A DNA stretch of 64,000 nt, from contig NZ_CP063196.1 in NCBI RefSeq assembly GCF_003574835.2, positions 5,022,001 through 5,086,000 on the forward strand, written 5' to 3'. Source of the stretch: Thermobifida halotolerans (GTDB taxonomy: Bacteria; Actinomycetota; Actinomycetes; Streptosporangiales; Streptosporangiaceae). Positions 24,401 through 64,000 of the stretch are shown one piece after another. Numbering within the stretch: the first letter of the stretch is position 1; each line of letters starts with the position of its first letter. The position numbers and the translations under genes are program-made. The notes under the pieces were generated by a model, which saw only the letters and a list, made by a program, of their open reading frames with translations, was not told the DNA's origin and made no database searches.

Positions 24401-24806
24401 CGGCCGAGCAGGTGACGCGGCTCTCGCGCATCGCCAGAGCACCGGAGTCGCGGACCACGACGGCGGTCCACGCCGCGCCGTCCACCTCGCAGTCGGCCAT
24501 CTCCGCCTGTCCGGCGGCGATGTCGACCACGGGCCGCTCCCCGTCGTGGCCGCGCAGGACCAGTCCGGAGAGCTTGACGGCCTCCGCCCCCGAGACGACC
24601 GCGCTGCCCGACTCGGCGATGATCTCCACACTGCCGCGGCCGTCCCGCGCCACCAGGGTGACGACCTTGAGCAGCATCAGGCTCTCCTCGTAGCGCCCCG
24701 GGGCGATGGTGATGAGCGCACCGCTCTCGGCGGCCCGCACCGCGGACTCGATCGTCGGGTGTCCGGTCGACCCGTCCGGAGCGACCGTGAGGAGTTGCCT
24801 GGCCAT
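21486..24806 (-). CDS. Parallel beta-helix protein with two EccA/CbbX-type AAA+ domains
   Basis: The 1,106-aa protein has two halves. Residues 1-510 are a right-handed parallel beta-helix with about 20 coils of the pattern 'vedCxfedvggrGIvV' and 'lrdCdIadCagDGIav'. Residues about 560-840 and 850-1106 are two AAA+ modules of the CbxX/CfqX/SpoVK type: Walker A GPPGTGKT near 608 and GAPGTGKT near 890, Walker B LFIDEAYTL near 669 and 950, and sensor regions with ASRFNRTIEFPNY and ASRFSHRVEFADY. The AAA modules are the class found in EccA of type VII secretion. The beta-helix could bind substrate or the cell surface. It lies downstream of the giant gene on the same strand and may unfold or load the giant protein; that role is inferred from context. 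Confidence 0.9.
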   Translation of the reverse strand: MARQLLTVAPDGSTGHPTIESAVRAAESGALITIAPGRYEESLMLLKVVTLVARDGRGSVEIIAESGSAVVSGAEAVKLSGLVLRGHDGERPVVDIAAGQAEMADCEVDGAAWTAVVVRDSGALAMRESRVTCSAGAGVVITTAEPSVLEDCVIEDVETSALVISDRGRPVVRSCVFRDMRGNGVFASGRAAGTIEDCDISGCAKPAVALEDDASTSLRGLRVHDTSEDGLALSSRARAVVEDCRFEDVGGRGIVVYNGSDPQVSRVTVARSKGVGIHVWGKARGLFTDCEVDASERDGVRADERATTSFINLTVRGGTGISIGGNSTVEFDRGLVTGSEGPGFVVEASSPFLRGVAVADTRGQGVRFRKGGQGRLENVTIERSGKSAVHADERSRPLLTGVSIRESRDNGVTVGAETEADLRDCDIADCAGDGIAVQNRGKASVLRSRVYNGRRNGVLVAAGAEATLRRCELFGNAGDGVLVHSTEDVLLEDCTVRDNSRAGLRQTVHSERVRTQELLSSGNGAPDAYGEDAGTGDDSVAPLPAAPVPDGGQEADEPDGPLAELDSLIGLENVKREVRTLINRTQMARRRAEMGLPAPPMNRHLVFGGPPGTGKTTVARLYGRILAELDVLRYGHVVEVSRADLVSQYVGGTAIKTTEVFERAKGGVLFIDEAYTLSGKTGGSGPDFGREAIDTLVKLMEDHRDDVVVIAAGYTEEMEGFLAANPGMASRFNRTIEFPNYETDELVRIVEGMCVAHHYELAEETREALRTLFEEMPRDATFGNGRTARKIFEEMVDRQAFRLGDAPPDSPADLTRLLPADLGVKVPEPGADGGEPKDELTELRAELDAMIGLRQVKDTVNDLANLLVMSTQRKALGLPVPSMSHHLVFTGAPGTGKTTVARLYGRLLKTLGVLTSGQVVEAARADLVGRYVGHTAQLTTEVFERARGGVLFIDEAYTLTPRGGGNDFGQEAVDTLVKLMEDHRDEVVVIVAGYTADMQRFLDSNPGLASRFSHRVEFADYSDEELVTIVDQMARKSGYECGEATLAALATHFAAVPRDASFGNARYARQVMERMITRQAGRLVGMAGAADREAFTTLLPEDVPAP

Positions 24807-26961: not shown

Positions 26962-27453
26962 TCATAGGTCCTGAGTTGTTCGCCTCACTTCCTCCACCCC
27001 TGGTCCGATTTGCCCCGGTTTGTCCGCCTCCTTGGGGGCGCCCAGCAGGTAGGGGGCGTAGAGTTCGGGCCGCAGCAGGGACGAGGCGGGCTCCCCCCGC
27101 GCGCGGGCGTCCCGCAGCACCGTCCACACGTGCGCGCCCGCCCGAACCCGGGCCGCCCCCTCGCCCGGACCGGACAGGGGACCGGGGTCCTCGGCCCAGC
27201 CCGCGGCGTCCTCGTCGTCGGTCCACACCCAGCCCAGGCGGGTGCCGTCCCCGTCGGCCAGGGCAGCCCGCCGGACGGGCGGCCGGTACCGTCGGCCGTA
27301 CTGCTCGGGCACGCTCGTGACCGTCACGGCGGCCCCGTCCGCGTTCCACCTCTCGGAGTGTCCCGGTGGACCTGCGTCCCTCGGCGGCCCGCGGCGGGAG
27401 GGCCGGGGTGGACCGCCGGTCGCGCGGGGGGAAGAAGCGGCGTCACTCGGCAC
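26962..27453 (-). CDS. 163-aa protein overlapping the giant gene's stop; candidate immunity protein or chaperone
   Basis: I chose the GTG at 27453, which begins eight bases before the end of the giant gene's TGA and has GGAGG six bases upstream; the frame is open further but without such a site. The product has a Pro/Arg-rich tail (1-40), then a compact domain with AVTVTSVPEQYGRRY, GTRLGWVWTDDEDAAGW, GAHVWTVLRDARARGE and LRPELYAPYLLG. I recognise no family. It has no signal peptide or membrane span. Tight translational coupling behind a toxin-like gene is the usual position of an immunity protein, but a type VII chaperone or accessory role fits too. Confidence 0.72.
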   Translation of the reverse strand: MPSDAASSPRATGGPPRPSRRGPPRDAGPPGHSERWNADGAAVTVTSVPEQYGRRYRPPVRRAALADGDGTRLGWVWTDDEDAAGWAEDPGPLSGPGEGAARVRAGAHVWTVLRDARARGEPASSLLRPELYAPYLLGAPKEADKPGQIGPGVEEVRRTTQDL

Positions 27454-30400
27454 GGTGTCCCTCCTCGTTCGGCGCGGGGGCGGACGTGGACCCGGAACCA
27501 CCGAGCAGCACGTCCCGGAACAGGTCCGTCAGGCTCTGGGGGCCGGTGTCGGCCGGGGACGCGTCGGTGGAGCCGACGGTTTCGGGCGGGGAGGGCGCCG
27601 CGTCGGGCGCGGGCTCCTCACCGGTCCCCTCCTCGGCGAAGCGCCGACTGTCCGGGACGAACTCGATGTCGATGAGCCACTGGTACTCCTCGTCGCCCAT
27701 CCAGCTCTCCAGCGGCACCCGCCGGACGGAGTGGATGACAAACGTGCGGTCCCGCTTGAGCAGCAGTTGGTTCTCCCCGGTCAGCGGGGTGACGTTGAGA
27801 GCCGGATAGCCCTGGGGCACGCGGACGGTGAAGTAGACGGAGTGGTAACCGGGCGTGTCGGGGCCGACGTCGACCAGGAGGTAGCCCGCGTCGGAGCGGA
27901 CGGTGCCCGCAAGTGCCTCGACCGACGCGGGATCGTCGGGGTCGGCGCCCAGCCAGTACAGGATGTCCGTCTCCGTGCCGTGGTGGACGACGAGGGGTTG
28001 GGGAGTCCGGCGGGAGCCGATGGCGCCGTCCAACCGCTCCACGGACGCCGGGAAACGGGAATCCCTGGAGTTGGTCATTCCTCGGCGCAGGTCCTCGTCG
28101 ACGCTGCTCAGGTTCTCGGAGAGGTAGTCCCTGATCGCGACTTCCTGGAGGGAGGACAGGTCCGGGGTCCTCCCGGCGGAGTCGTCGAGCAGGAGGTTCC
28201 TCAGATCCCAGGAACCGCTCCCCGCTCCCACCGAGGTGATCGGCATGTTCTCCGACAGCCACCGGAAGGCGTCCTCCGGGTCGGTGAACCGCAGGGACTC
28301 GGCGGTGTCCGCGCCGTCGGACTCGTCCCGGTCGCCCTCCCAGGCCTGTGCCGGGGCGATCCGCTCCTCGGTGTTGACGTAGGTGGTGCCGGGCGCGACG
28401 TCCCCCGGGTCGGAACGGTAACCGGCGTCGACGTCCCCGAGGGGGGAGGGGGTCCAGGTACCGTCGGGCTCCCAGTCGGCCGGGACGATCTCGGCCTCGA
28501 TGAACCAGCTCCTCGCCGCCGGGTCCCCCCAGAGCGCGACATCGCGTTCGTAGGCGGCGTGGATGACGAACCTGGTGCCGCGCGGCAGGAGGACCTCGCG
28601 TTCCTCGTCGCCGAAGCTGGAGAACGGCATGACGTTCAGCGCGGGATGGCCCTTGGGAACGCGCAGCGCCATGAAGACCTCGCGCTCCACGGCGGCCGTG
28701 GAGCCGATCGAGGTCGACAGGTAGTTGCCGTCGCTGAAGGTGCGGCCGACGAGCCCCTGCACGGACTGGGGGTCGTCCGGGTCCGACACGCCGAGACGGG
28801 CGAGGTAGTCCCTGTTCACGCCGCGGTGCAGGACCACCGGTTCCGGCGCGGGCGAGGCGGCGATCGCCCCGTCCAGTCCGTCCAGGAGCGCGCGGAAGTG
28901 GGCCGGGTCGGAGACGGAACCGCCGCGCAGACCCTGGTTCACCAGAGCGTCGCCCCCGTAGGTGTAGTTCCGGACGGCCAGTTCCTGCCGCACCGTCAGT
29001 TGACGGTTGCTCCCCGCAGTCCCGGCCCCCCGGTCGGAGGCGGGCAGCGGCGTCAGGTGCTGGTAGGCCCATTCGACACCCTCGTGGTCGCTGGCGAAGC
29101 GGACCGCGCCGTGGTCCATGCCCACACCGCCGGGCTCGTCGGGGGCGCCCTGCCACGGCTGGGGCGGGGGGATCTGGAGGTCGAACGAGACCACGTCCGA
29201 GGCCGCGCCTTCGTTGTCCAGGTGGATGTCGAAGACGGGGAAGGCGAAGAGGTCGTGGCCGGTGGTGGGTGGGGTGGTGTTGGTGGTGCGGGCCTGGAGG
29301 GTGTCGAGGTCGTGGTCGGCGCGGGCGGCTTCCTGGCGGAGTTGGGCGGCGCGGTGGAGGCCGTTCTGGTAGTCGGGGTGGGTTTCGTTCCAGTTGTTGC
29401 GGGTGCGTTGGGTTTCGAGTTCGGTTTCGAAGCGGACGAGGTCGGCGTGGGCCTGGGCGGCGCGTTGGCGGGCCTGTTCGAGGGTCTGGTCGGTGGTGTC
29501 GGGGGCGGGTGCGGTGTCGCTGAGGGTGGCGGGAGGAACGAACGCGGTGAAGATCTGGGGCCCGTCGTTGCCGCTCCGCTGTTGCGCGGGATTCTCTCCG
29601 GCGAGGTCCAGGTATTCCTGGGTGCGCTCGTCCGCGTGATCGCGGGCCTGGGCGGCGAGGTCCTCCAGAGCCGGGGCCTCGCGGGAGTAGGCGGAGGTGG
29701 TGGTGTCCGCGTTGACGGCGAGCATGTGGAGAAGAGCTGCCTCCCGCTCGGCCGAGACCGCCCGCCGGTAGGAGTTGACAAGATGCGGGGACGCCCCCGG
29801 GGCCGGGGAAGGGCCGATGCGGACTGCGGGATCGCCGGTGGGAACCAGACCGAGACTGTGGGCCAGGGCCACCGCGTAGCGGCGGTAGGCGGCCCTGTGC
29901 CGATCGGCCTGGCGCGGGTTGTTTTGGGAGTACAGGGCGTCGGCGAGTGCGCGGGTTTCGGCCAGTGCCGCGGCCAGGTAGTCGCGGACCCTTCCGTTGG
30001 TCTGGCTACGGGAGCGGGCGGCGAGGTCGTTGAGCGCGGCGGCTTCGTCGGGCGGGAGGGAGAGGGCGCCGGTGCGCGCGTTGTCGACGAGGGCTTCGAG
30101 GAGAGTCGCCTCCCACTCGGCTCTCCTGATCTCCCGGTGGCTGCGGGAGAGAAGCTGAAGCGCGGGGTCCGGGGCGGGGCCGAGGCGGTTGGCGGGGTCG
30201 ACGTCAAAGGTCAGGTCGAGGGTGTGGGCCAAGGCCAGGGCCAGGCTGCGGTAGTCGGCCTGGGCTTGGCGGGACGCTTCCCGGTGCCGGTGGACCGTCT
30301 CCTGGTGCTGGTTGAGTACGCTCCGGTCGCTTCGGGAGGCAAGAGCGGTCTGGTAGGCGGCATCGGCTTCCCGCCAGGCCGCGTTTTCGGTGTCGAGGTG

Positions 30401-33400
30401 TTGGCGGGTTTCGGTCAGTGCCTGGGTGAGGTGGGTTCGGAGGGTTTGGGTGCCTTCGGTGTGGAGGGTGTCGGCTTGGGCGCGGAGTTGTTCGGCTTCG
30501 GCGCGCAGCCATGCGGCTTCGTGGGGGAAGCCGGTGGTGTCGGCGTTGTCGGCCCACAGGTCGTGTTCGGCGGCGCTGTCGCGGAGTCGGGCGGCGTCGG
30601 TGAGTGTTCCGACTGCTTGGAGGCGCTGTTTGGTGGGCAGAGCGCGCAGGTCGGGCAGGTTGGGGTGGATGCGGGGGGTGTGGGGGGTGCCGAGGGCTTC
30701 GGCCTGGATGCGGGCGTGGTGGTGGTGGCTGCGGATGTAGTGGTCGAGTCGGGTGGTCAGTTCGGTGTGCTGGGGGGTGTCGGGGGTGAGGGCGGCGATC
30801 CGCTGGCGCAGGTCGTCGATGGTGTGGCGGTAGCGGGCGAGGAGTTGTCCGCGCTGTTCCGCGGTGGTCGGTTCGGGGGTTGGGGCGGTCTCGTCGGGGG
30901 TGTAGGCGGGGGGTGTGTCCTCCGGTGCGGGGATGTCGTCGTCGGCGGCGAGGAACGCGGTGACGGCGTCGGGGGTGGTCAGAGGGGCGAGGATGTGGGT
31001 CGCCAACTCGGTGTAGGTATTGAGGAGTTGGTCGCTCAGGCCGAGTCGCCCTTGCAGGAACACGATGTTGGCGCGTGCGAGGTTGACGTTCCAGGCGTGG
31101 AGCGCGTCGTCCTGGGAGGGGATGGCGTTCAGGAGGAACACCCGTTCCGTCCAGAATCTGAGTCCGTCGGTCAGGTTCTGGTTCAGGGTGGTCTCGGCGG
31201 TGTGGAGGTCGCGCACTTCGGCGGCGGCGTCGGTGCTGGACAGGTCGGTGGTGGTGACGCCCAGGGCCTTGGCCAGCGCGGCGGCGGTTTCCCCGTTTTG
31301 GCTTCTGATCTGCTGGGCCTGGGCGGTCAGGGTCTCGTGTTGGCCGCGGAGTTCCTCGGCGCGGGCGAAGTACTCCTGGGCTTGGGTGGTGGCGGTGCGG
31401 ATGCGGTCGCGTAGTTCGGTGGTCTGCTGGTCGCGGTCGGGGCCGGTGTCGGTGGGTTCGGTGTCGCGTTGGCGGGTGAGGGCCTGTTCGCGGGTCTGGT
31501 GGTAGTCGGCGCGGGCGTGGTGGGCGCGGGCCTGGTCGCGCAGGCGGGTGTAGGTGTTCTCCAGGTCCTGGGCTTGCTGGAGCAGGGGGGTGCGGGCGGC
31601 GGTGTCGGTTTCGGGAATCCGGGCGAGTTCGGCGTGGACGCGGGCGAGCGAGGCGAGTGTGTGGTCGGCTTCGGTCGCGTGGTTTCGGGCTTGGTCGCGC
31701 AGTTCGGTGGCCTGGGCGCGGGCCTCGTCGATGAGGGTGTCGTAGTCGGGGGTGGCGGCGGTGCGGCCGGGGTAGGCGGGCGGGGCGTCGTCGGTGGTGT
31801 CGTTTTCGAGGTCGGCGAGTTCTTCTTCCAGGGCCTCGCGCAGCCGCAACTGCTCGTCGGCGCGGGTGAGGAAGTCCTGGGAGTCCCGCAGCGCCGCATC
31901 GGCTCGCCGCTGCAGGTCGATGACCCCGTCGTTGCTGGTGGCCAGGGTGCGGGTACGCCTGCCGATGTTCCGGACGAGGCCGCTGATCTCCGCGCGTACC
32001 CGCTCCAGGTCCTGGTAGGCGGGACCGCGGCCCGCTTCGAGGGGGGCCGTGTCGGTGTGGACGGACTGGGCGGCGTGGAGTTGGGCGTTCAGCGCGTGCC
32101 AGGCGCGGGCACGTTCGGCGACGGTCAGGTAGGCGTCGCGCAGTGAGATCCGGTCGTTGCCGGGGGAGGCGGACTCCGGGGCTCTCGTGGTCTCACGCGG
32201 TGCCGGGGGTGCCAGGTCGACGCTGCCTTCGAGCAGTTCCCGTTCGGCGCGTTGCGGTGTGTCGGCGTCTCCTCCGGCCGGTTCCGGGTTGGTGTAGCCC
32301 AGGAGCTCGGCGAGCTGCCGGGCGTGGTCGAGGTAGTCGCGCAGTGGGGCGTGGCCGCTGTCGGCGGAGGCCTGGTCGGTCAGCACCTCGCGCACCGCGT
32401 TTTCGAGGTGGCTGCGGTGGGTGGCGGGGTCGGGCGCGGCGGGCAGGTGGCCCAGCGCGAAGCGGCTGTAGTCGCGGACCATGGCCGCGGCCGGTTCCCA
32501 GCCTGGGGGGAGGTCTTGGGAGGAGGAACGTGCCTGTTCGATGAGGGTGTCGATGTCGGACAGGACCTGATCGGCGTTCCGCTCGGGAGCGGCGAGGGCC
32601 ACGCGGACCAGACTGGCCGCGTCCCGCAGGGCCTGGAGGGCCGGAGGCAGCGGGCTTTCCATCTCCTCGGGGCTGGCCACGATCACCTGGATGTCGGGGA
32701 TGTCGAAGACGGGGAAGGCGGAGAGGTCGTGGCCGGTGGTGGTGGGTGGGGTGGTGTTGGTGGTGCGGGCCTGGAGGGTGTTGAGGTCGTGGTCGGCGCG
32801 GGCGGCTTCCTGGCGGAGTTGGGCGGCGCGGTGGAGGCCGTTCTGGTAGTCGGGGTGGGTTTCGTTCCAGTTGTTGCGGGTGCGTTGGGTTTCGAGTTCG
32901 GTTTCGAAGCGGACGAGGTCGGCGTGGGCCTGGGCGGCGCGTTGGCGGGCCTGTTCGAGGGTCTGGTCGGTGGTGCCGGGGGCGGGTGCGGTGCCGCCGA
33001 GGGTGGCGGGAGGCACGAACGCGGTGAAGATCTGGGGCCCGTCGTTGCCGCTCCGCTGTTGCGCGGGATTCTCTCCGGCGAGGTCCAGGTATTCCTGGGT
33101 GCGCTCGTCCGCGTGATCGCGGGCCTGGGCGGCGAGGTCGTTGAGCGCGGCGGCTTCGTCGGGCGGGAGGGGGAAGCGGCCGGTACGTACGGTGTCGGCG
33201 AGGACTTCGAGGAGGGCGGCCTCCGCGTTGGCGCCGACCGCCTGCTGGTGGATGACGCGGACGTCGACAGGTGCGTTCTCGGTGTCTCTCCCCGCGTCCG
33301 GGATCCGGGTGAGGAGCGGACTCTGAGGGTCGGGAGTCAGGTAGAGGGCGTGGGCGAGAGCCACCGCGTGGCGACGGTAGTCGCTCCAGGCTCTGCGGCT

Positions 33401-36400
33401 CGCGACGTGGTCGCCCCGGGAGACAGCGGCGTCGACGCGGGCGCGGGCGTCGCCCATCGCCGCGACCAGGTAGTCGCGGACCGCGGTGTCCGCGTGATGG
33501 CGGAGGTGGTGGGCGGTACCGTCCAGCGAGGCGGCCAGGTCGGGGTAGGGGAAGGTGTCGGTGTTCGCCATGTCGGCGAGGGCGTGGAGAAGGGATCCCT
33601 CCCAATCCGCCTGGAGCGCCCGGTAATGGGCGGCGTGGAGGTCGGAGGGCGCGCTCGGAGGCGGGGGCGGGCCGATGCGGAAGGTGAGGTCGGGGACGGG
33701 GCGCAGCCCGAAGGCATGGGCGAGGGCCAGAGCGTGGTGCCGGTAGTCGGTCCAGGCTTCGTGGATCACGTCCTGGTCGCCTCGGGAGGTCGCGACGCTG
33801 AGCACGGTGTGGGTTTCGACCAGTGCCGCGGCCAGGTAGTCGCGGACCCTTCTGTCGGCGTGGGCGCGGGCTTGGACGGCGAGATCGTTCAGCCTCGGGG
33901 CCTCGCGGGAGTAGGCGGCGGTGGTGGTGTCCGCGCTGGCGGCGAGCATGTGGAGGAGAGCGGCTTCTTGCTCGGCCGCGACAGCCCGCTGGTGGAGGGA
34001 GACAAGAGACGGGAGCGTCTCCGGGGACGGGGGCGGGCCGACGCGGGTCGCGGGATCGCCGACGGGGGCCAGTCCGAGGGCGTGGGCCAGAGCCACCGCG
34101 TAGTGGCGGTAGTCGACCATGTGCCGATGCGCTTGGCCCTCGTTGTTCTGGGAGCGCAGGTTCTCGAAGCGCTCGCGGGTCTCGGCCAGTGCCACGGTGA
34201 GGTAGTCGCGGACCCTTCCGTCGGTCCAGGTACGGGCACGGGCGGCGAGGTCGTCGAGTGCGGCGGTCTCCTCGGGGAGGGAAAGGTCGCCGGTGCGTAC
34301 GGCGTCGGCGAGGGCCTCGAGGAGAGCGGCCTCCCGTTCGGACCTTGTGACCTGCCGATAGGCCCGGAAGAGGGACCGGAGTGTGCGGTCCGGGACGGGA
34401 CCGAGGCGGGCTGCGGGATTGCTGGCGGGGGTTAGGTCGAGGGTTTCGGCCAGGGCGAGGGCCAGGGCGCGGTGGTCGGCCCCGGCTTGGCGGATCGCGT
34501 CCCGGTGCCGGATGACCGTTTGCTGGTGTCCGTCGAGTACGGCCTGGTCGCTTCCGGAACGCTGGGCGTCTTCGTAGGCGGTGTTGGCTTCCCGAAGAGC
34601 CGCGTGTTCGGCGTCGACGCGTTGGCGGATTCGGGTCAGGGCTTGGGTGAGGTGGGTTCGGAGGGTTTGGGTGCCTTCGGTGTGGAGTGTGTCGGCTTGG
34701 GCGCGGAGTTGTTCGGCTTCGGTGCGCAGCCATGCGGCTTCGTGGGGGAAGCCGGTGGTGTCGGCGTTGTGGGCCCAGGTGTCGTGTTCGGCGGCGCTGT
34801 CGCGGAGTCGGGCGGCGTCGGTGAGTGTTCCGACTGCTTGGAGGCGCTGTTTGGTGGGCAGAGCGCGCAGATCGGGGAGGGAGGGACGGATGTGGGGGGT
34901 GTGGGGGGTGCCCAGGGCTTCGGCCTGGGTGCGGGCGAGGTGGTGGTGGGTGCGGGTGTGGTAGTCGAGTTGGGCGTTCAGTTCGGTGCGTTGGCGGTGG
35001 GGGGTGTCGGGGTCGAGGGCGGCGATCTGGTGGCGCAGGTGGTCGATGGTGTGGCGGGTGCGGGCCAGGTCGCGGCCGCGCTGCTCCACGGTCATCGACT
35101 CGCGGGGCGGGACTGCCCCGCCGGGGGTGTACGCGGGTGGGGGGGTGTACGCGGGGGGTGCGTTCACCGGTGCGGTGCTGTCGGGATCGGGTGCGTTGAG
35201 GAACGCGTCGGTGGCGTCGGGGGTGGTGAGCGGGGCGAGGATGTGGGTCGCCAACTGGGTGTAGGCGCTGGTGAGGAGGGCGCTCAGGTTGAGCCGTCTC
35301 TCCAGGAACTGGAGATTGGCCTGCGCGAGGTTGACGTCCCAGGTGTGGAGGTCGTCCCTGGAGGGGGCGCTGTACAGCTCGAACAGTTGGCCCTGCCAGT
35401 ATTCGAGCTGCTGGTCCAGGTGCTGGCGCAGTTCGGCTTCGGCGGTGTGCAGGTCGCGCACCTGGAAGGCGGCGTCGGTGCTGGACAGGTCGGTGGTGGT
35501 GACGCCGAGGTCTTGGGCCAGCGCGGCGGCGGTTTCCCCGTTTTGGTCCCTGGCTGTCTGGATCTGGGCGGTCAGGGTCTCGTACTCGTCGCGGAGTTCC
35601 TCGGCGCGGGTGAAGTACCGTCCAGCTCTTTCGGTGGCGGTCCGGATGTGGTCGCGCAGGATGGTGGTCTGCTGGTCGCGGTCGGGTCCGGTGTCGGTGG
35701 GTTCGGTGTCGCGTTGGCGGGTGAGGGCCTGTTCGCGGGTCTGGTGGTAGTCGGCGCGGGCGTGGTGGGCGCGGGCCTGGTCGCGCAGGCGGGTGTAGGT
35801 GTTCTCCAGGTCCTGGGCTTGCTGGAGCAGGGGGGTGCGGGCGGCGGTGTCGGTTTCGGGAATCCGGGCGAGTTCGGCGTGGACGCGGGCGAGCGAGGCG
35901 AGCGCGGTGTCGGCCTGGTCCTGGTGGTCGCGGGCCTGGTCGCGGAGTGCGGTGGCCTGTTCGCGGGCCTCGTCGATGAGGGTGGTGTAGTCGGGGGTGG
36001 GAGCGGTGCGGTCGTCGTCGGTGGTGTCGTTTTCGACGTCGGCGAGTTCCTCCTGGTAGGCCTCTGCCAGGCGCCGCTGCTCCTCGGCGCGGGCCAGGAA
36101 GCCCTGGGAGTCCCGCAACGCCGCGTCGGCCTCCCGCTGGAGGTTGGCGATCTCGTTGTTGCTGGTGATGAGGGAGCGGGCGCGGTCCTCGACTCTCAGA
36201 GTGAGGGTCCTGGCCTCGGTTCTCGCCTGGTCGAGGCTCTCCTCGCGGCGGCTGTGGAACACCTCGAGGCCGGCCGTTTCGGTGTGGGCGGACTGGGCGG
36301 CGTGGAGTTGGGCGTCCAGCGTGTGCCAGGCACGGGCGTGTTCGGCGGCGGTCAGGTAGGCGTCGCGCAGCGGGGACGCCGGAGGTGCCAGGTTCCGGTC

Positions 36401-39400
36401 GCCCTCGGCCAGGTCCCGGTCGGTGTGTCGCGGTCGGTCGGGTTCGCCTTCGGCCGGTTCCCGGTTGGTGTAGCCCAGCAGTTCGGCGAGTTGTCGGGCG
36501 TGGTCCAGGTAGTTGTCCAGCAGGGCCCGGCCGTTGTCGGGGGAGGCCGACTCCGGTGCGGCCATGGCCCCGAGCGTCGACTCCGCGAAGAGATCCCCCT
36601 GAACATCGGGATCGGTCGAGGTCGGCACGTGGTGCAGGACGAAGCGGCTGTGGTCGCGCAGCATCTGCGCGCCCAGTTCCCAGGCGCGGGCCTGGTCGGC
36701 GGGAAGGTCCCGCGAGGCGGGGCGTGCCTGTTCGATGCGGGCGTCGACCTCTGACAGGACCTGGTCGACGTCCCGTTCGGGGGAGAAGAAGGCCGTGTGA
36801 ACCAGGTCGGTGGCGTCCCGGAGAGCCTGGAAGGCCGGGGGCAGCGGGCTCCCCGTCCCCGCGGAGGTGCCCGCCTCCTCACGGGTGCCCGCGACCGTCT
36901 GGGCGTCGCCGGCATCGGTGTGGATGTCGAAGACGGGGAAGGCGGTGAGGTCGTGGCCGGTGGTGGGCGGGGCGGTGTCGGTGTGGCGGGCCTGGGTGGT
37001 GGTGAGGTCGTCGTCGGCGCGGGCGGCCTCCCGGCGGAGGCGGGCGGCCTGCCAGAGGTCTTCCTGGTGGGTGAGGGGGGATTCGTTCCAGTCGTTGCGG
37101 GCGTATCGCTCCCGGAGTTCGGTTTCGAAGCGGACGAGGTCGGCGTGGGCCTGGGCGGCGCGTTGACGGGCCTGTTCGAGGACCGGGTCGGCGGTGGTGC
37201 CGGGTGCGGGGGCGGTGCCACCGAGGGTGACGGGAGGCACGAACGCGGTGAAGATCTGCGGGTTGTTCCACCCGGCGGGCGAGCCCTGACCGTCCTCGGT
37301 GTCGGAGGCGTCGGTCATCTCGACGTCGTCCTGGTCATCCTCCGTGTCGGAGGCGTCGGTCATCTCGACGTCGTCCCGGTCATCCCCCGTGTCGGAGACG
37401 TCGGTCATCTCGACGTCGTCCCGGTCATCCCCCGTGTCGGAGACGTCGGTCATCTCGACGTCCCGGCCGTCTCCGGTGGAGTCGTCGACCATGGCCGAGG
37501 TGGCACCGGCCATGTAGCGCTGGACCGCTTCGTCGGCCTGGCCGCGGGCGGTTCGGGCCAGGTCGCGCAGGGTGGACGCTTCGTCGGGCAGGGGGACGGT
37601 CCCGGCGGCCACGGCGTTGGCGAGGGCCTGGAGGAGGGCGGCCTCCTGTTCGGCGCGGACCGCCTCCTGGTGGGCGGCGTGGAGGTCGGGTGCCTCGGCC
37701 GGGTCGGGAACCCGTGCCAGCACCGGGTTGCCGACGGCCGGCCGCAGGCCGAGGGCGTCGGCGAGAGCCAGTGCGTGGCCGCGGTAGAGAGTCAGGTGCT
37801 GGTCGGCCGCGGCCCTGAGACGCGGCTCGGTGGTTGTGTGCTGCTCGCGTCTGCGCAGCAGGGACCCGGCGTGTTCGCGTGCCTCGGCCATCGCCGCCAC
37901 GAGGCGGTCCCGGGTTGTGCGGGAACCCGGGTCGGGAAGCGGCTGTTCCTGGAGTGTCCGGGCGGTGGTGCGGAGCCGTTCGGCTTCGGCGCGCAGCCAT
38001 TCGGCGTCGCGGGGGAAGCCGGTGCTGTCCGCGTTGTGGGCCCACAGGTCGTGTTCGGCGGCCTCCTCGCGGAGCCGGGTGACGGTGTGCAGGGTGTGGA
38101 TGGCATGGAGATGCTGTTCCGGGGGCAGGCTCTCCAGGTCGAAGGGCGGGGTCTGCGGTTCGGGGCGGGTGGGGGCGGTTCCCAGGGCCTGGGCCTGGAT
38201 GCGGGCGTGGTGGTGGTAGTTGCGGGTGTAGTAGTCGAGTCGGGCGTCCAGTTCGACGCGTTGGCGGCGGGTGGCCTCGGGGCCGAGGGCGGCGATCCGC
38301 TGACGCAGGAGGTCGATGGTGTGGCGGGTACGGGCGAGGAACCGGCCGCGCTGCTCCACGGCCGTCGACTCGCGGGTCGGGACGGACTCACCGGTGGGGT
38401 ACGCGGGCGGGGGGGAGTACGCGGGAGGTGCGTCCACCCGTCTGCGGGGTTCGGCGGTGGGCGGGTTGAGGAACATACTGATCGCGTCGTGGCCGGTCAT
38501 CGGGCTGAGGATGTGGGCCACCAACTGGGTGTAGGCGTTGGTGATGTGGCGGCTCTGTTCGAGCCGCCTCTCCAGGAACTCGACGTTGGCCCGTGCGACC
38601 GACAGGCTCCAGGAGCGGTGGCGGTCCCCGACAGGGCCGTCGCTGAGTTCGAACACGCGGGACTGCCAGTATTCGAGGAGATCCCGCACGGTCTGGCGCC
38701 GGGAGAGTTCGACGTTGCGCAGGTCGCGCAGTTCGGTGGCGGCGTCGAGGCTGAGGGGGTCGGCGGCGGTGACGTCGAGGGCCCGGGCCAGGTGGGCCGC
38801 GGCCTGCTCGCTCCGGTCCCTGGCTGTCTGGATCTGGGCGGTCAGGGTGTCGTACTCGTCGCGCAGTTGCTCGGCGCGGGTGAAGTACCGCCCAGCTCTT
38901 TCGGTGGCGGCCTGGAGGCGGTCGCGCAGGATGGTGGTCTGCTGGTCGCGGTCGGGGACGGTGTCGGCGGGTGCGGTGTCGCGTTGGCGGGTGAGGGCCT
39001 GTTCGCGGGCCTGGTGGTAGTCGGCGCGGGCGTGCAGGGCGCGCGCCTGGCCGCGCAGATGGGCGTGGTGGCTCTCCAACCGTTGGACCACCCAGAGCAG
39101 GCCGTTGCGGGTGGCGGTGTCGGTTTCGGGGGTGTCCGTGAGCTGGGCCTGGGCGCGGGCGAGTGAGGCGAGTGTGTGGTCGGCTTCGGTCGCGTGGTTT
39201 CGGGCTTGGTCGCGGAGTTCGGTGGCCTGTTCGCGGGCCTCGTCGATGAGGGTGTCGTAGTCGGGGGTGGCGGTGGTGCGGTCGTCGTCGGTGTCGGTGG
39301 TGTTTTCGAGGTCGGCGAGTTCCTCCTGGTAGGCCTCTGCCAGGCGCCGCTGCTCCTCGGCGAGGGCCAGGAAGTCCTGCGACTCCCGCCACGCCGCGTC

Positions 39401-54400: not shown

Positions 54401-57400
54401 GGGAACGGCGGACTCGGTGGACAGCGCCGTGGTCGGCTGGGAGGGGTTCAGAATCCGGCCGAACAGGGACGGCATCGCGGTGGGCCGGTTCTGGGTGGTG
54501 CGTGTTCCGGAGTTGGTGGGCTGCGGTGTGGTGGGTTGGTTCTGGGGCGGGGTGTCCGGGGTGTCGCTGGTCCCGGTGGTGGCGGGCTGGTCCTGGGTCG
54601 GGGTGTCCGGGGTGGTGGCGCGTGTTCCGGGGCTGGCGGGCCGAGGCGTCAGTGTGCCCTCGGATGCGGGCGGCGTCTGGTCGTCGTGGCCGTCGTGGTC
54701 GCCGCGGGTGGCCGCGCCGGGTTCGCCGGTGCGCTGACGGGCCTTCTGCCAGGCGTCCCGCCAGGCGGTGAACTTCTCCTCGAACGCGGCCTTGGCCCTG
54801 TCGTACTCCTGCTGCTGCCGCTCGTACGCGACGCGGACGTCCTGGTCGTCGGGGTCGCGGGCGAGGCTGTCGACGAGGGGGAGGAGCGCGGCGCGCTTGC
54901 TGTAGTAGTCCTTCTCGGCGTCGGCGAGTTCCTGCTGCGCCTTGGCGACGCCGTCCCAGGCCCCGCTGTCGACGCGGTCGCCGTCGAGCAGGCCGAGAGT
55001 GCGGGCCTGGTTCTCGCTGATCCAGGCGGTGATGGCGCTGTCGGTCTCGGCGAACCCGCGGGTGGGGGTGCGGCCGATGCCGGGGATGTGGGTGTGCGGG
55101 TTCTCGGCGGCGACGATCCAGCTCGTGGGGACCCGGACGAGGTAGCTGCGCTTACCGGTGGGATCGGGGCCGGGACGGCCGGGGTCGCTGTCGACGTGGC
55201 CGTCGGTGCGGGCGGTGCTGTCGCCACCGGCGGTGGCGACAGCGGGCACGCCGACGAAGACGGCACCGGGAGAGGTGCTGGTGGCGGAGTCGGCGGCGGT
55301 GCCTTCGGGGGGGCTCTCGGCGAGCCAGGCGGCGGGACGGACGCTGATGTTGGCGTTGGTGCCGGAGGAGTCGGCGACGGTGGTCAGGTGGAGGCTGCCG
55401 CTGCCGCGGGAACTGGTGTTGGTGGCGTCGACGGCGACGTCGACGATGGCGGCCCGGTCGAAGTGGGGGATGGCGCCGAGGCGCCACCGGGTGCGGCCGA
55501 TGTCGAGGAGAGCGGCGCCGTCGGGGACGGAGGGGTCGGCGGCGTCGTGGAACAGGACCTTCAGGGACGCATCGTTGAGGTTGACGGTGACGGGGTCGTT
55601 GTTGGGATCGATCCCGGTCTTCCTGACGGCGTAGGACTTGGCGTTCCGCACGTCGTCGGCGGTGAGGTCGCCGGTGTGCCGCCAGCCGTGGGCCCTGGCG
55701 AGGGCCACGTACGCGGCGTCCTGGACGGAGTGCCCCTTGTCCTGGACGGTCAGCGGCGCGACGTCCACGTGCGGGCGGGCGGTGGCGCCGTCGCGCCGCG
55801 CTCCTCCCTCTGCGTCGCCGCGCTGAGCCGCGTCCTGCTGGTCCGCGCCGCGCTGGTCCCGGTCCTGGGGCCGGGGACGGCCACGCCAGTCGCGGACCGC
55901 GCCGTCCAACTGCCCGGGGTCGGCCGCCAGCCGCGGCATGGGGGCCTGCTCGGCGCTGTCCGGAGCCTGTTCGGCTTCGGCGTTCCGCTCTGCGTCGGCC
56001 GTCTCCGCGTCGACCTGGTCGACGAGGTCGAGGTAGGCGGCGGGGAAGGCTTCCTTGACGGTGGAGTGATCGCCTTCGACGGTGAAGGTGCGCGAACCGT
56101 AGGTGATGGTGAGACGGATGTGGGCGGGAGTCTCGGTGACGGCGTAGGGACCGTTGATCGCGGTGGTCCAGGAGGCGTCACCGGTGGTTGCGGTAATGCT
56201 CTTGTGGGCGGTGCCGGTGGTCATGCCCGCGGTGAGAGCGGGGGAGACGTTGACAAGACGCGGGCGGGGAAGCTCGGAGGGAAGGTCGCGGGGCTCGTCT
56301 CCTCGGGGCAGCGGGGTGGGCATATGCGAGAGGAACTCGGCGCGGGTGCCCAGGGTGGTGCCGGTGCTGCTGATGGCGTCGTGCTCGGTGGACACGGAGT
56401 GGTCGTGTTCGAAGGTCCCGCTGCCGCCGAGCTGGACGACTCTGGGAGGCTGGCGTACGGCCTCGATGGTGACGGTGCCGTGGCGGATCTGCCCCTTCAG
56501 CTCACCGCGGAAGGACCCGGAGGCCCGCTCCCCGTTCGGTCCGGTCTGCTCGGGGTGGCGGGAGAAGCGGTTGTGCCGGGCCCGCAGCTTGACGGAGACG
56601 GTACTGGGATCGTCGGTGCTGCGGGCGAGCTGGGCGGTGATCTGGTTGAGAACCGACTCGCGGCTGTGGCCGGTGAGTTCGTAGTTGTCCTCGCGCAGCC
56701 GCTCGGCCAGCCGCACGCCGGTCGAGTCCTGGGACTGCGCCTGCCGGGCGGTGCGCGCGTCGGCGTCCTGCCCCGGGGCGGGCGTGCGCGGAACGGTGGC
56801 GAGGTGGTGGCCCTGGTCCTCGAAACCGGGGCGGATCCGGAACCGGTCGGGGCCGAGCTCTGGGTTGGCCTGGGGGACGGGGTGGCCGGTGTCGGGATCG
56901 ATGCGGTCGTTGACCAGGCCCGCGTCGTAGAGGGCGTGGAGGGGCGCGAATCCGAACTCGGCGCGGGGAACGGTGGTCTGGGTGCCGCTGTAGTGCTCGT
57001 CCCGGGGGGAGCGCGGCACGTTGACCATGAAGTCGTACTCGTCGCGGACCTCGGCGGTCTCGGTCAGGCGAAGGTCAGCGGTGTAGGGGCGGACCCCGCC
57101 CTGGGGTTTGAAGCTGGTCTTCTGACTGAAGGCGGCGGTGTCGGCGATGCCGGAGATCCAGCGCTTCGCGGCGGTCAGCGGGTTCCAGCCGAACCAGAAG
57201 GAGGGGGCGTTGGCGGTGTTGCTGGTGGTGCGGCCCGGGGTGGGGTTGTCGGGGTCCTCCTTGAGGCCGCGTGCGGAGGGATTGGGGTTGCCGACGACGC
57301 GGGCCTCGACGTCACCGGAGAGGAAGTGTCCTCTGACAGTGCTGCGGGTGATGCCGGTGCTGCGCGTGTGACTGGTCTTGAAGTCGCTGTCCGGCAGGAT

Positions 57401-60400
57401 GTCGTGGAAGGTGACGTCGGTGCGGTCGGCGTGCAGGACGGTGGTGTGGCGGCCGCTGAAGAAGAAGTCGCGCATCCAGTTGCGGGTGCGGTAGCCGGGG
57501 TTGGAATCCAGGGCGTGGGTGTGCCCGGCGAGTGTCTCGCGGCCGAACAGAGTGGTGAAGAAGTCGTGCCCGGCGGGACGCTTGAGGAAGTTCTGCAGGC
57601 CGGGGGCGTTCCGCAGCAGTCCGTAGAGGCGCTGGCGCAGCGTGGAGTCACCCGCGCGGGCGCTGATGCCCTCGGTCGCCGTCGGCAGCGTGTCCAGGAC
57701 GGCGGCCTCGTGTGACTGGTCGTTCCCTCCACGCGGGGCGCCGGGCTGCCGTGCCGCGATCGGTGGTCGGGCGCCGTTCACGATGCCTCGGGCCTGCTCG
57801 GCGGACAGCAGGGTGGAGGTCCGCTCGGCGGCGCCCCGGTCGCCGGAGCCCTCGTCGGCGAGGTCGGGCCCGGTGCGGCCGGGATCGGCCGGGGCGGGGG
57901 TCTCCAGTTCGATGCGGCCGGTGAGTTGGATGGGGTTGCCGTCGGCGTCGGTGAGCAGGTTGACGCGGTAGCCGTCGTAGTCGGGACGGTCCTGGGTGAC
58001 GGTGGTCCTGACGTCCGCGGGCAGGTCGTCGGTCTTGCGGAACTTGCCCATCTCGGCGTGGAACCGGAGCTTGTAGCGCCAGATGTCGGTGTCGCCCTTG
58101 TGGGTGAAGGAACCCGAGGTCTTGACGGTGGCGTCGGTCTCCAGACCACGCGAGGTCATGCGCTGGTACTGGCCGCGGAAGCCGCCCCCCGCCTGGAAGC
58201 GAGCCATCCAACGGGCGTCCACGTTGGGCATGTCGCGGAACATGGTGCGCACGCGGAGACCGATGCGGTTGAGGCGCTCGTGCTCCTCGGCCCTGCGGTG
58301 GCTCGCGCTGCCGTCGGTGCTGGTGGCGGTGTGGTTCTTGGTGACGGTTCCGCCGAACTCGCGTCCGCTGGGGGTGGCGCGCAGGCGGACGGTGATGTAG
58401 TCGGGACGGAACCAGCCCTCCCTGTTCTCCGGGTCGACGAGGGCGGTCTCGATGAGGTGCACGTCGATGCCGTCGCTGGTCCACTCGTCGACGAGGCCGG
58501 TGAGGTTGGTCTCGGAGATCTGCTCCAGGATCCGGGCGGTGTTGTAGAGGGCGATCTCGTGGTCGCGGCGGAAGTGGTTCTCGCGGGAGAAGAACCGGCC
58601 GCTGTGGTCGACCTGGCCGGGAGGCCGCCTCGCGTACTCGGAGCGGGCGCGGGCGATGTCGGGGATGACCAGACCGGGGTACTGGCGGGCGATCCCGGTG
58701 AGCACCTGCTGGGCGTAGGCGTCGATGACCGTCCGCGGCGGGCTGTCGGCCCGGGGAGCGGTGTCGGGGGCCGCGGCGGAGTCCCGTGCGGTCGGGGCGG
58801 CGGGGCTCCAGGTGGTGTACTGGCTGCCGTCCTCCCAGGTGACTCCGCGGACCGTGGTGCCGCCGAAGTGGTCGGGGCGGTCCTCGCCGAGATGGCTGTA
58901 GACCGGGGCGTGGTCGCCCCGGGACCGGGCGTCGGGAGTGGCAAGGTCGGGGTCCCGCAGCAGGCGGGCGTCGTCGACGCCGAGGATCTCGATGCTCTGG
59001 CCGGTGAACCTGTGGGGCGTGTCCTCGCCGTCGAACTGCAGGTAGAAGTTGCGGTTGACGGCGTACATGGCGGCGTCTTCGGTGTGCGTGACACGTCCGA
59101 CACCGCCCTTGTCGACCCGCACGGTCCCGATGGCGCGTTCGCGGTCGTGCCGGTAGTCGGCCAGGGGCAGTTCCGTGCGCATCTGGCTGTTGAACGCCTG
59201 GAGGACGAATCCGCCGCCGAATCCCCCGGCGACGGAGTCGGAACGCAGGAAGGTGTTCTCCACCTCCTTGCTGGAGCTGACGGTGTGCTCCAGGCCCAGA
59301 CCGGCGGGCACGTCGGGGATGCGGGTGAGTTCGGTGGGCACCGACCACATCTTGACCAGGCGCTCGTGCCCGGCGTTGTCCCTGACCTCAAGGTAGATGG
59401 GGCCCTTGGTCATGGCCTTGAGGTTGTCGCGCACCGAGTCGTCCGACAGCATGTGGCGGATCTCGGCCGCTTCGTGCCCGTGGGGCCAGGCGGTCTTCCT
59501 GCGGCGCAGGAAGTTCGGCAGCACCGTGTCCTTGGCGCGTTGGAACCAGTTCCGGGGGCGCGGATCGCTCAGGTGGTCCACCACCCACTCCGCCATCGTC
59601 CGTCGGCCGCCGCGCCGACCCCCCGTGCCCTGTCCGTCCTCCTGAGCCTGACCGGTGTCTTCGGCGGCGTAGACGCCGTTGACGGCTGCCGGGTGACCGT
59701 TGCCCACGCGGATGCCCGCGTTGCCGCCCGCGACCGCGTCCGGCGCGGGCTCGGTGGTGTCGAAGGGGTCGCGCAGCCGGATGTGGTCGGGGGCCTCGGA
59801 GGAGCGCTCTCCCAACTCCACCGTCAGACTCAGGCCCCTGGGCACCTCGAACACCGCGGGGCCGGTCAGCTCCACGTCCTGCGCCTCGGCGCCCGCCTGC
59901 TCCGAAGCCCGGTCGCGCGGCTGGGAGTCGGGACCGAGAGTGAGTTCGGCGCGCAGGTCGGTGAAGTACTCCACGGCCCTGCCGCTGACACTGGCGCTGC
60001 TCGCCATGGCCGCGTCGCGGCCGATGACCTCGCTGGCGCTGGGCTGGTTGACCGAGCCCAGCGCGGTGAAGGTGATGGCCGGGCCCAAGCTCGCGGGCAG
60101 CGGGATGGGGAACAGCGGGTTGACGTAGACGGTGCCGCCGAAGCCCCGGTGCGCGTTCTCACCGCGGGTGTCCTGGTGGATCAGGGGCCTGCCCGCGGAG
60201 TCGGAGTTGGACAGGCCCGGAGTCGAGTCGTCGTCCTTGGGGAGGTCTCCCGTGCGCCGCCAGTCGTTGCTCCGCGAGCCGAGACGCAGGGTCGCGGTCC
60301 GGTCTCCCACCGTCACGGAGTGGCCGCCGTGGCTGAAGAAGGGGTACGGGTTCCTGGCGAACTCGGCGGCGAACGCGTCGCGGAACCCCTCGGGCAGGTG

Positions 60401-63400
60401 CTGGGCCAGTCCCTCCAGTACGCCGTCGAACCCTCGTCCGCCCTCGGAGCCGGGCACGGTCAACCCGATCCGCTGGGTCTCCAGGAGTTCGCTGCCGAGC
60501 AGGTGGTCCAGTTGCCGCGAGTAGGTGTCGAGGTCGTCCTCGCGACTCCTGCCGGACTCCCGCTCCATCCTCGCGACGTCCGCTTCCAACCGCGGAACGT
60601 CGCTGTCGCTGGTCTCCTTGAATACGCCGGCCCTCTGCTCGTCACCGACGAAGACGTTGGCCCGTTCGGCGTCCGCGATGAGTTCCGCCCGGGCCTCCTT
60701 CTGGGCGTGCTCCAGGTTCCGCTCCGCCTCCTCGACGGCGCGGAGGCGGTCGGCGTACGCGGTCTCGGCCGCCGTGGCGGCCTCCTCCAGAGCGCGGACC
60801 TGCTCGTCGGGGACGCGGGTGGTCTCCCCCTCCGGTTCGACCGTGGTCTCGGTCCGGACGGTGTCCCCGGGAGGCGTTCGGAGTTCCTGCTCCAGGAGTT
60901 GCAGCCGCTTCCGCTGCTCGTCGGCCTCCTGCTTCTTCTCCCGCGCCTTCTCGGCGGCTTCGTCGCGGGCGTCGCGTGCCTGGCGGGCGGCCTGCTCGGC
61001 CGCGTCCCTGACCGACTCCAGGTGCGCCAGCCGCGCCGTCCGCAGGTTTCCTCGGGCGTCCAGCAGGTCGTGACCGACGGTCGCGGTGTTCTGGAGGGCC
61101 GCACCGTAGTCCCGCTCGATCCGGGCCCGGTCGAGTTGGTCCCGCGTCCAGTTGCGCAGGTCCCGCTCCATCGTCTGCTGCGCGGTCCGCGCCTCCTGCT
61201 CAGCTCTGGCCACGGCGCGCTCCCGCGCGGAGGCGGTCTCCGTGGCGGCTGCCCGGTCGCGGCGGGCCGCCGCGGAGTCCCGGTCCGCTGCGGCCAGGTC
61301 GGCCTGGTGGGTCCGCAGGTCCTCGTCGCGGGTCCTAACGGCCTGGTCCAGGGCCTGCGTGTGCCGCTCGACCAGGGCCTGCGCCTCCTGTTCGAGCCGG
61401 GCGGCGCGCTCGCTGTCCGTTTCGGTCGGGGGAGCGGGCTGTTCTCCCGTTTCGGTCGGGGGAGCGGGCTGTTCTCCCGTTTCGGTCGGGGGAGCGGGCT
61501 GTTCTCCCGTTTCGGTCGGGGGAGCGGGCTGTTCTCCCGTTTCGGTCGGGGGAGCGGGCTGTTCTCCCGTTTCGGTCGGGGGAGCGGGCTGGCCTTCCGT
61601 TTCGGTCGGGGGAGCGGGCTGTTCTCCCGTTTCGATCGGGGGAGCGGGCTGGCCTTCCGTCTCGGGGGCGCCGGTCCGGTCAGCGTTCGCGCGGATCTCG
61701 GCGGCCTGGTCCCGTAGGGTCTGGGCGTCCTGCCGCGCCTGGTCCAACGCGGCCTGGGCCTCCTGGACGGCCCGCTCGGAGGCTTCCGCGCGGTTCCTGG
61801 ACGCCTCGGCCTGCTGGCGGGACTGGGCGGCCCGATGGTCGGAGTTCTGCGCTCGCTGCTCGGCCTGCTCGACCCTGTTCTGCCACTCCGACCGTGTCGT
61901 GGCAGCACTGGCCGCAGCCTTGTCGTAGGCGGCCCTGGACTTGTCGTAGGCCGTCTTGGAGTCGTTCTCCCGGGTCTGCGCGGCCTCCCACCGGGCCTGC
62001 TCGGCCTGGCTCCGTCGCTGCGCCTCGTCGAACCTGCCCTGCTGCTCCGCGACTGCCCGCTCGTGGCTTCGGAGGGCCTCCGACGTCGGATCGGTGGTCA
62101 CGGGGGTGGGCTCCGGCGGCGTGTTCGTCTCCGAGACGGGGGCCGAGGCGTCGTGCCCGGTCTCGGGCGTCTGTTCGGCGGCTCCCCCCAGCTCCGGAGT
62201 ATCGGAGGCCGCGGCGACCGTTTCGTTGGCCGGAGAGAGATCGGAGGTACCGGAGGAGGTCCGGTCCACGACGGGCTCCGTTGCCGTGGGACTCTCCTGG
62301 GAGACCGCTGCGGAGGGCTGCGAAGCCTGGGAGGAGACCGTCCGTCCGGCCTCCGTCCCGGTGGGGGCCGGGGTTTCGGTGGAGGAGGGCGGCCGGTCGG
62401 CTTGAGAGGAGACCGTCTGCGGAGCCTGCTGCGAGGACCGGTTGGCCGGAGCGGCCGTCCGGTTGGGTGTGCTGTCGTTGGCGGACGGAGCGGTGCCGGC
62501 GGACCGGTTCTGCTGCTGTGTGCCTTCGGTGGTTCGGGAGTCGACTGTGGTGGTGGTTGGTGTGGGTGCGCTGGTGATCGGGGAGGAGGCGCCGGGGATC
62601 AGGGTGGTGTCGGATGTCGGGGTGGTGGTGCTCTGTTCGGAGTCAAGGGTGATGTCGTAGACGGCGAAGGCGGTGAGGGGTGGGGGGGTGGGGATGGTCA
62701 GGTTGCCGAAGGAGTCGATGCCGTTGAAGTGGGCGGTGCGCAGGGAGTTGATGAACTCTTCGGCGGCTGCTCTGTTGCGGGCCGCGTTGTCGGTGTTGTT
62801 GGTCCTGGTCCCGGTGTCTTCGGTGGTGTCGGGGGTGGTGGTCCGGATGTCGGGGGTGGTGATGGTGAGGTCGGGTGCGGTGACGGTGGGGTCGGCGGTG
62901 CTGCCGGTGTCGGTGAGGTCGGCGGTGTTCGGCCCCGTGGCGGTTTTCTGGGTGGGGGAGGTGGCCGGGGGTGTGGCGGTGCCCGGCTTGTCGGTGGGGT
63001 CGCTTTTTTCGGTGGGGGTGTTGGGTGGGGGTGGGAGGGTGATGTCTCCCATGTTTTTGAGGGTGTCGATGGTTGTGAGGCCGCCGAGGGTGGCGAGGTT
63101 TTGCAGGGCTGCGGTGGAGGCTCCGGCGACGGCGGACATGCCGGAGGCTTCCCAGCCTTTGTCGGTGAAGAGGAGGTTGGTGAGTCCTTCGCCGACGTAG
63201 CCCTCGATGGCGCCGGTGCCGGCGGCGAGTCCGGCGTCGCGGAAGCGGTGGGCCCAGGTGGTGCCGTAGGTGTCGAGGGTGGTGGTGAGGGCGTCGGGGA
63301 TGTTGTGGGAGAGGTGGTTGCGGAGGCCGGGGGGCAGGTTGGTGGTGGTGAGGGCGTCGTCGAGGCTGGTGCGGAGGTGGGGGGTGCCCCAGTTCTTGGT

Positions 63401-64000: not shown

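Follow-up and report, generated by a model that had tools for sequence, protein, structure and literature searches.

A 12,348-residue protein with several ADP-ribosyltransferase domains beside a type VII locus, a probable exported toxin

What is made from a reading frame that stays open for more than 37 kb, and what might such a product do? The question is raised by the DNA stretch analysed here (the window; 64,000 bp, C1:5022001-5086000 of a 5.5-Mb genome in two contigs), in which positions 27443-64000 of the minus strand are filled by a single unbroken frame of 12,185 codons. The preliminary description of the window had proposed a secreted protein of more than 12,185 residues with six ADP-ribosyltransferase (ART) domains on a helical stalk, either delivered as a contact-dependent or phage-like toxin or displayed as a surface fibre with enzyme heads.

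The frame was found to extend 489 bases beyond the edge of the window to an ATG at C1:5086489. Counted from this methionine, as is done throughout, the product has 12,348 residues and a mass of about 1.35 MDa (1,350 kDa); its net charge is -675. The uninterrupted frame, the stalk, which comprises five modules, and the six ARTs of the preliminary description were confirmed, with two amendments: the full length is 12,348 residues, and the last ART is degenerate.

The giant gene and the parts of its product

The protein consists of a WXG100-like export domain, a beta-rich region of 2,213 residues, four ARTs, five helical modules and a terminal ART pair. Its features are as follows (window positions, minus strand throughout).

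27443..64000, minus, ATG outside the window at window-equivalent 64489 (C1:5049443-5086489): giant gene, 12,348 aa
62996..64000, on to 64489, minus: N-terminal export domain, residues 1-498, with WXG100_2 at residues 14-137
54245..60883, minus: beta-rich region, residues 1203-3415, with a homologous region in the paralogue and in relatives
53279..53728, minus: ART1, residues 3588-3737 (R, SAS, QxE)
52811..53131, minus: small 'AYYDHH' domain, residues 3787-3893; in relatives it likewise accompanies ARTs and HExxH domains
51398..51859, minus: ART2, residues 4211-4364 (R, STS, ExE)
50819..51124, minus: second 'AYYDHH' domain, residues 4456-4557
50114..50569, minus: ART3, residues 4641-4792 (R, STA, ExE)
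48968..49423, minus: ART4, residues 5023-5174 (R, STS, ExE)
44579..47680, minus: helical module 1, residues 5604-6637
41024..44530, minus: helical module 2, residues 6654-7822, strand-free in an AlphaFold model
36917..40078, minus: helical module 3, residues 8138-9191
32699..36850, minus: helical module 4, residues 9214-10597
29219..32656, minus: helical module 5, residues 10612-11757
28550..28999, minus: ART5, residues 11831-11980 (R, STS, ExE)
27725..28153, minus: ART6, residues 12113-12255, degenerate, with H in place of R, LVD in place of STS and ExQ in place of ExE

The frame is not an artefact and its size is no local sequencing accident, since codon use is coding-like throughout, cysteine is completely lacking and comparably long frames are present in other genera (see below). 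When the gene is divided into 21 blocks of at most 600 codons, each block has a third-position GC content of 0.85-0.93, and the more than 37 kb of the gene contain neither a stop nor a cysteine codon in this frame. Read in the other five frames, this DNA gives 19-340 stops and 4.4-60.4 cysteines per 1000. Long plus-strand frames opposite the giant were rejected as genes, their codon-position GC being without the third-position peak of the giant. Likewise, three overlapping tRNA-Arg calls within the giant (61446-61649, plus strand, spaced by 60 bases) are very likely a short-repeat artefact.

At the N-terminus, the family WXG100_2 (PF25547) matched residues 14-137 with 49.5 bits against a cut-off of 27. 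The type VII-like start expected in the preliminary description was thereby found once the upstream DNA, where a type VII locus adjoins the gene, had been checked.

The ARTs were located with a profile built from the giant's own copies, which gave the six domains listed above. Arginine, the first serine and the last glutamate of the signature are kept in five of them, and all three are gone in ART6. The strictest form of the motif (serine at both ends of the serine motif, together with ExE) is present in three of the six and, over all frames, in 17 of 32 aligned copies, so the ARTs of the relatives are not all intact either. A Pfam scan of the giant in slices returned ADPrib_exo_Tox stretches, two of them at the C-terminus. 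The genome-wide Pfam scan yielded seven ART exoenzyme matches, five in the giant and two in its paralogue; it lists the other five ARTs of the giant and lacks the degenerate ART6.

Compared with solved structures, the ART profile found 38 sequences at E <= 0.001, with Vip2 as the best match (4.4e-17), C3larvin at 2.1e-14 and the iota component Ia at 1.7e-11, which agrees with the ART fold proposed earlier. The domains thus resemble the Vip2, C3 and iota-type ADP-ribosyltransferases (PF03496) in profile, and the R/S/ExE signature is shared by most copies of the giant. ExE marks the arginine-type ART enzymes and QxE others. Four or five of the giant's ARTs are probably active, mostly in the ExE class. 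Whereas Vip2, C3 and iota-type ARTs occur as single enzymes or as parts of binary toxins, the ART domains of the giant are strung along a single chain.

For the beta-rich region, of which one relative has up to three copies, the sequence showed a periodicity of strand type, and a model of low confidence contained long strands. A search of solved structures with this region gave no match, and none of 544 Foldseek matches of its model reached E <= 0.001. Internal repeats were considered and rejected: hhalign assigned a probability of 38 to one of six unit pairs and 0.2-2.7 to the others. An in-out alternation was found in 1 of 15 predicted strands at p<0.05.

The giant was also compared with itself as 400-residue slices. 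Its stalk is made up of the five helical modules over residues 5604-11757 (6,154 residues). The AlphaFold model of module 2 has zero strands and supports the helical reading; the periodicity of the stalk is not purely helical, with the top single peak at 155 degrees and a strand-type power of 1.15 versus 1.06 +/- 0.05. The solved-structure search with the stalk gave no match. Foldseek, run with the stalk model, returned 0 of 181 matches at E <= 0.001, the weak ones being assorted long-helix proteins including Tc toxin subunits.

Between stalk modules dN is about equal to dS (0.19 and 0.18 for modules 2 versus 4), and hence individual residues of the stalk appear to be under little constraint. 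For the N-terminus, compared with that of Marinactinospora thermotolerans, dN is 0.30 and dS 0.75. This pattern would fit a loosely constrained spacer and a conserved N-terminus, although gene conversion may distort such ratios. The number of modules is that of the assembly rather than of sequencing reads, since the gene contains exact internal repeats of up to 536 bases and shares 1,494 identical bases with its paralogue.

The type VII locus, the second giant and relatives

The genes around the giant were inspected on both sides. Directly downstream of the giant and beyond the upstream locus the following features are found.

26962..27327, minus: 121-aa gene directly downstream of the giant, without Pfam family
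24909..26525, minus: 538-aa proline-rich gene of the giant's locus, matched in three relatives' stretches
21486..24806, minus: 1,106-aa protein with right-handed beta-helix and AAA ATPase ('EccA-like', our own label), matched in three relatives' stretches
C1:5103445-5122020: paralogue of the giant, 6,191 aa, beyond the type VII locus

Upstream of the giant lie, in this order, genes for proteins of 126, 1,120 and 1,091 aa, two WXG100-type genes, EccB, EccD, EccC (on the opposite strand), a mycosin-like protease and the paralogue, so that EccB, EccC, EccD, the protease and both WXG100-type genes are situated between the two giants. EccB, EccC and EccD exceed the NCBIfam cut-offs. The protease scores below its cut-off (178.9 versus 278.75), as do both WXG100-type genes (44.3 and 19.0 versus 44.85), one of which passes the Pfam cut-off. 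Among the 13 neighbouring genes scanned with Pfam, several were type VII components and none belonged to a phage structural family, which lends no support to the phage-like delivery suggested earlier. A contact-dependent (two-partner/CDI) route was not indicated either, as WXG100_2 and ART families were all that Pfam matched when the giant was scanned in slices.

The 126-aa gene ends 11 bases before the ATG of the giant and contains a W-G pair. Its size, this pair and its position hint weakly at a kinship to WXG100; by profile the match is weak as well (hhalign probability 8.5). A solved-structure search gave just two matches (E 0.57 and 0.6), and neither for this gene nor for the 121-aa gene was any Pfam family obtained even at E 5. 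In M. thermotolerans a small gene likewise ends 11 bases before the giant; it is 31% identical to the 126-aa gene when aligned, and tblastn at E 1e-5 finds no link between the two. Nocardiopsis sp. N85 and one contig of N. flavescens have clearer matches to the 126-aa gene, located 132-135 bases after a giant.

The neighbouring gene for the 1,120-aa protein (C1:5087013-5090375) encodes no cysteine, and its product contains acidic repeats of short length ('DPETG...') and looks helical at the C-terminus. It is perhaps a further exported protein of the locus.

The first 1,494 bases (498 residues) of the paralogue are identical to those of the giant, after which both sequences diverge abruptly. 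The remainder is arranged differently: in the paralogue one helical module is followed by two ARTs and then by the beta-rich region. Recent gene conversion would be the simplest reading of the identical export ends, with misassembly as the alternative. A conserved export end with exchangeable payloads, which is characteristic of polymorphic toxins, was thus found in two paralogues that share 498 identical residues and differ in the rest. With the identical export end and the reordered remainders, the pair has the look of polymorphic-toxin evolution in progress.

Homologues, which the preliminary description had asked for, were found in other genera. With a 240-residue N-terminal query, matches were obtained in 27 of 120 sampled genomes of the family, the present one included. 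A 498-residue query was run against three other genomes of the genus; two gave no match and the third a match of 69 residues (E 3.6e-4). The stalk is absent from all three. The frame of Actinorugispora endophytica has 16,885 codons and reaches base 103,550 of a contig of 103,551 bases. In M. thermotolerans the frame has 12,978 codons, about 12,680 of them in register up to a scaffold gap of 10 N (C16:146962-146971), and it is flanked by the identical gene order, type VII locus included. The frame of Nocardiopsis ansamitocini (11,506 codons) takes up its whole contig with both ends open. These three genomes are taken to belong to the species named, since named records match at identical coordinates. 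Draft assemblies break at such genes, as this one-frame contig and the 10-N gap illustrate, and giants of this kind are therefore probably under-counted in databases.

The neighbourhoods of the relatives were compared in the DNA fetched (16 sequences from 12 distinct stretches). Ecc or mycosin genes are present in four stretches (M. thermotolerans, Nocardiopsis sp. N85, Kitasatospora xanthocidica and Kitasatospora sp. DSM 101779), and none were found within the DNA fetched for the other eight. Among these eight, the A. endophytica stretch contains just the beta-helix/AAA and proline-rich genes of the locus, and two N. flavescens stretches contain the small gene alone (in one case on the opposite strand, with E 6.6e-7); the remaining five showed no locus genes in the DNA fetched.

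Cysteine is nearly absent across the Nocardiopsis group. At the rate of 73 other genes of the region (6.38 per 1000), about 79 cysteines would be expected in the giant, and its 12,348 residues contain 0. In 12 frames of the Nocardiopsis group we counted a single cysteine in 94,607 residues. These frames represent 11 giants (that of M. thermotolerans was taken as two pieces; for A. endophytica the 15,701 fetched codons were used) and were trimmed where the N-terminal match begins or where the gap lies; the Kitasatospora giant was left out. In the raw frame of M. thermotolerans all 12 cysteines are situated past the gap, out of frame, and in three other frames every cysteine precedes the N-terminal match. 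For the Kitasatospora giant the count is 8 in 7,694 residues, and the cysteine purge is thus most pronounced in the Nocardiopsis group. The single cysteine per 94,607 residues is a clean signature, which can be tested as a translocation constraint.

Probable export, possible targets and alternative explanations

Taken together, the giant is probably a type VII (ESX-like) exported polymorphic toxin of about 1.35 MDa with several ART warheads along its chain. From the observed anatomy, motifs, gene order, absence of cysteine and relatives we infer the following course of events. The neighbouring EccC machinery would recognise the WXG100-like N-terminus, perhaps with the product of the small gene 11 bases upstream as its partner, and export of the chain would follow. 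Outside the cell the helical modules could serve as a spacer keeping the ART warheads apart. The ARTs might then be freed by cleavage or partly delivered into a target cell, where they would ADP-ribosylate proteins. A purge of cysteine would suit a chain that is kept free of disulfides during threading.

Several points count against the type VII toxin reading: the heavy demand that the export of 12,348 residues would make, the eight stretches without ecc or mycosin genes in the DNA fetched, the cysteines of the Kitasatospora giant, the missing stalk in the three other genomes of the genus, the loose constraint on the stalk, the weak profile match of the 126-aa gene to WXG100 and the ARTs that fall short of the strictest motif. 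If the protein is exported whole, the question arises how an ESX-type channel copes with a chain of 1.35 MDa.

As to the target of such a toxin, we lean slightly towards a eukaryotic cell, e.g. a grazing protist, rather than a bacterium, because the solved relatives of the ARTs are Vip2, C3 and iota-type enzymes and because no recognised immunity family was found among the 13 Pfam-scanned neighbours. The converse, an antibacterial toxin exported by the type VII system against a competing bacterium, with the producer protected by an immunity gene that escaped recognition (for instance the 121-aa one downstream), is unlikely in our estimate, though it has a precedent in the type VII LXG toxins of Firmicutes, which act between bacteria (PMC5555719). 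The small gene does lie directly downstream and is conserved in one relative. However, its match in M. thermotolerans is 64% identical over 104 residues despite the differing payloads of the two giants, unlike what would be expected of a toxin-specific immunity gene, and the two ADP-ribosylglycohydrolase genes of the genome are located elsewhere.

The preliminary description had also considered a surface fibre, which sequence alone cannot separate from a released toxin. In that case the chain would be anchored on the producer and the stalk would lift the ART heads off the wall, with an adhesive or protective role instead of delivery. The very long helical stalk and the large beta-rich region would agree with a fibre, and giant surface proteins are known from other bacteria (PMC12863079, PMC10619420). 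On the other hand, Pfam shows no wall anchor in the slices of the giant scanned, and the ARTs are placed at both ends of the stalk and not at one tip. NAD, which ARTs need, is scarce outside cells, and this too argues against enzyme heads on a fibre. We rate a fibre as a poor candidate.

That the gene is decaying or not expressed, or that the assembly has inflated the number of modules through repeats, is highly improbable: the 536-base internal exact repeats, the 1,494-base perfect repeat with the paralogue and the degenerate last ART would allow it, but 37 kb of open frame contain no stop and no cysteine, other genomes have frames of 11,506, 12,978 and 16,885 codons, and the N-terminal dN of 0.30 against a dS of 0.75 relative to M. 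thermotolerans speaks for conservation.

Known systems and further payloads in relatives

How does a probable exported toxin of this layout compare with known proteins? Its size and layout had been called unusual, which holds; unprecedented they are not. Giant actinobacterial multi-toxin proteins of up to 13,652 residues were reported in 2012, and longer, stalked toxins were noted as a set in type VII systems (PMC3482391). The largest, SACTE_5178 of Streptomyces sp. SirexAA-E (13,652 aa), is likewise actinobacterial, exceeds 10,000 residues and carries several toxin domains per chain, three ARTs among them (PMC3482391). In addition it has caspase, lethal-factor-like and MCF1-SHE domains, none of which Pfam finds in the present giant, and in the available part of that report, on whose description alone the comparison is based, no WXG100-like start or type VII locus is tied to it (PMC3482391).

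An N-terminal export region joined to a toxin is shared with CpnT (PMC8092274) and with the mycobacterial CpnT-like protein MAV_4644 (PMC6560410), in both of which the toxin is C-terminal. MAV_4644 has a WXG100 match and a VIP2-type ART and is encoded in an operon with two WXG100 genes (PMC6560410). CpnT, the most thoroughly studied toxin of this type and compared by description only, has one toxin domain, located C-terminally and ending at residue 846 (PMC8092274, PMC6560410). The present giant differs from both proteins in its 12,348 residues, its six ARTs, its internal payloads, the beta-rich region and the stalk.

The type VII LXG/WXG toxins also have an N-terminal helical export domain, small helical partners and a variable payload; they usually combine a conserved N-terminus with one variable C-terminal toxin, in contrast to the many payloads of the giant (PMC5555719, PMC11217815). 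Also unlike these toxins, the order of the parts differs again in the paralogue of the giant. The literature searched, as far as its text was available, yielded no type VII substrate of comparable size. The giant joins the known multi-toxin giants and the CpnT-like ART proteins at a new scale and stands out as a test case for its size, its export locus and its lack of cysteine. If the whole chain is exported, it would to our knowledge exceed every other type VII substrate in length by a wide margin.

The payloads of the relatives vary as well. Eight Pfam ART stretches occur in one frame of N. flavescens (8,073 codons), and the K. xanthocidica frame has Scabin-like and ART matches. An additional HExxH domain of about 320 residues, accompanied by the small 'AYYDHH' piece, was found in five copies in A. 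endophytica, in three in M. thermotolerans (one of them past the scaffold gap) and in one in N. ansamitocini. Neither the giant nor the paralogue contains the HExxH domain, both having the small piece only. The domain is putatively zincin-like (our own label); one copy was searched and gave no Pfam family even at E 5 and no solved-structure match. On the Streptomyces clavuligerus plasmid pSCL4 a WXG100-like frame of 2,360 codons adjoins a type VII locus. This stretch of the megaplasmid, for which the collection used has no gene annotation, also shows a partial match to the HExxH domain.
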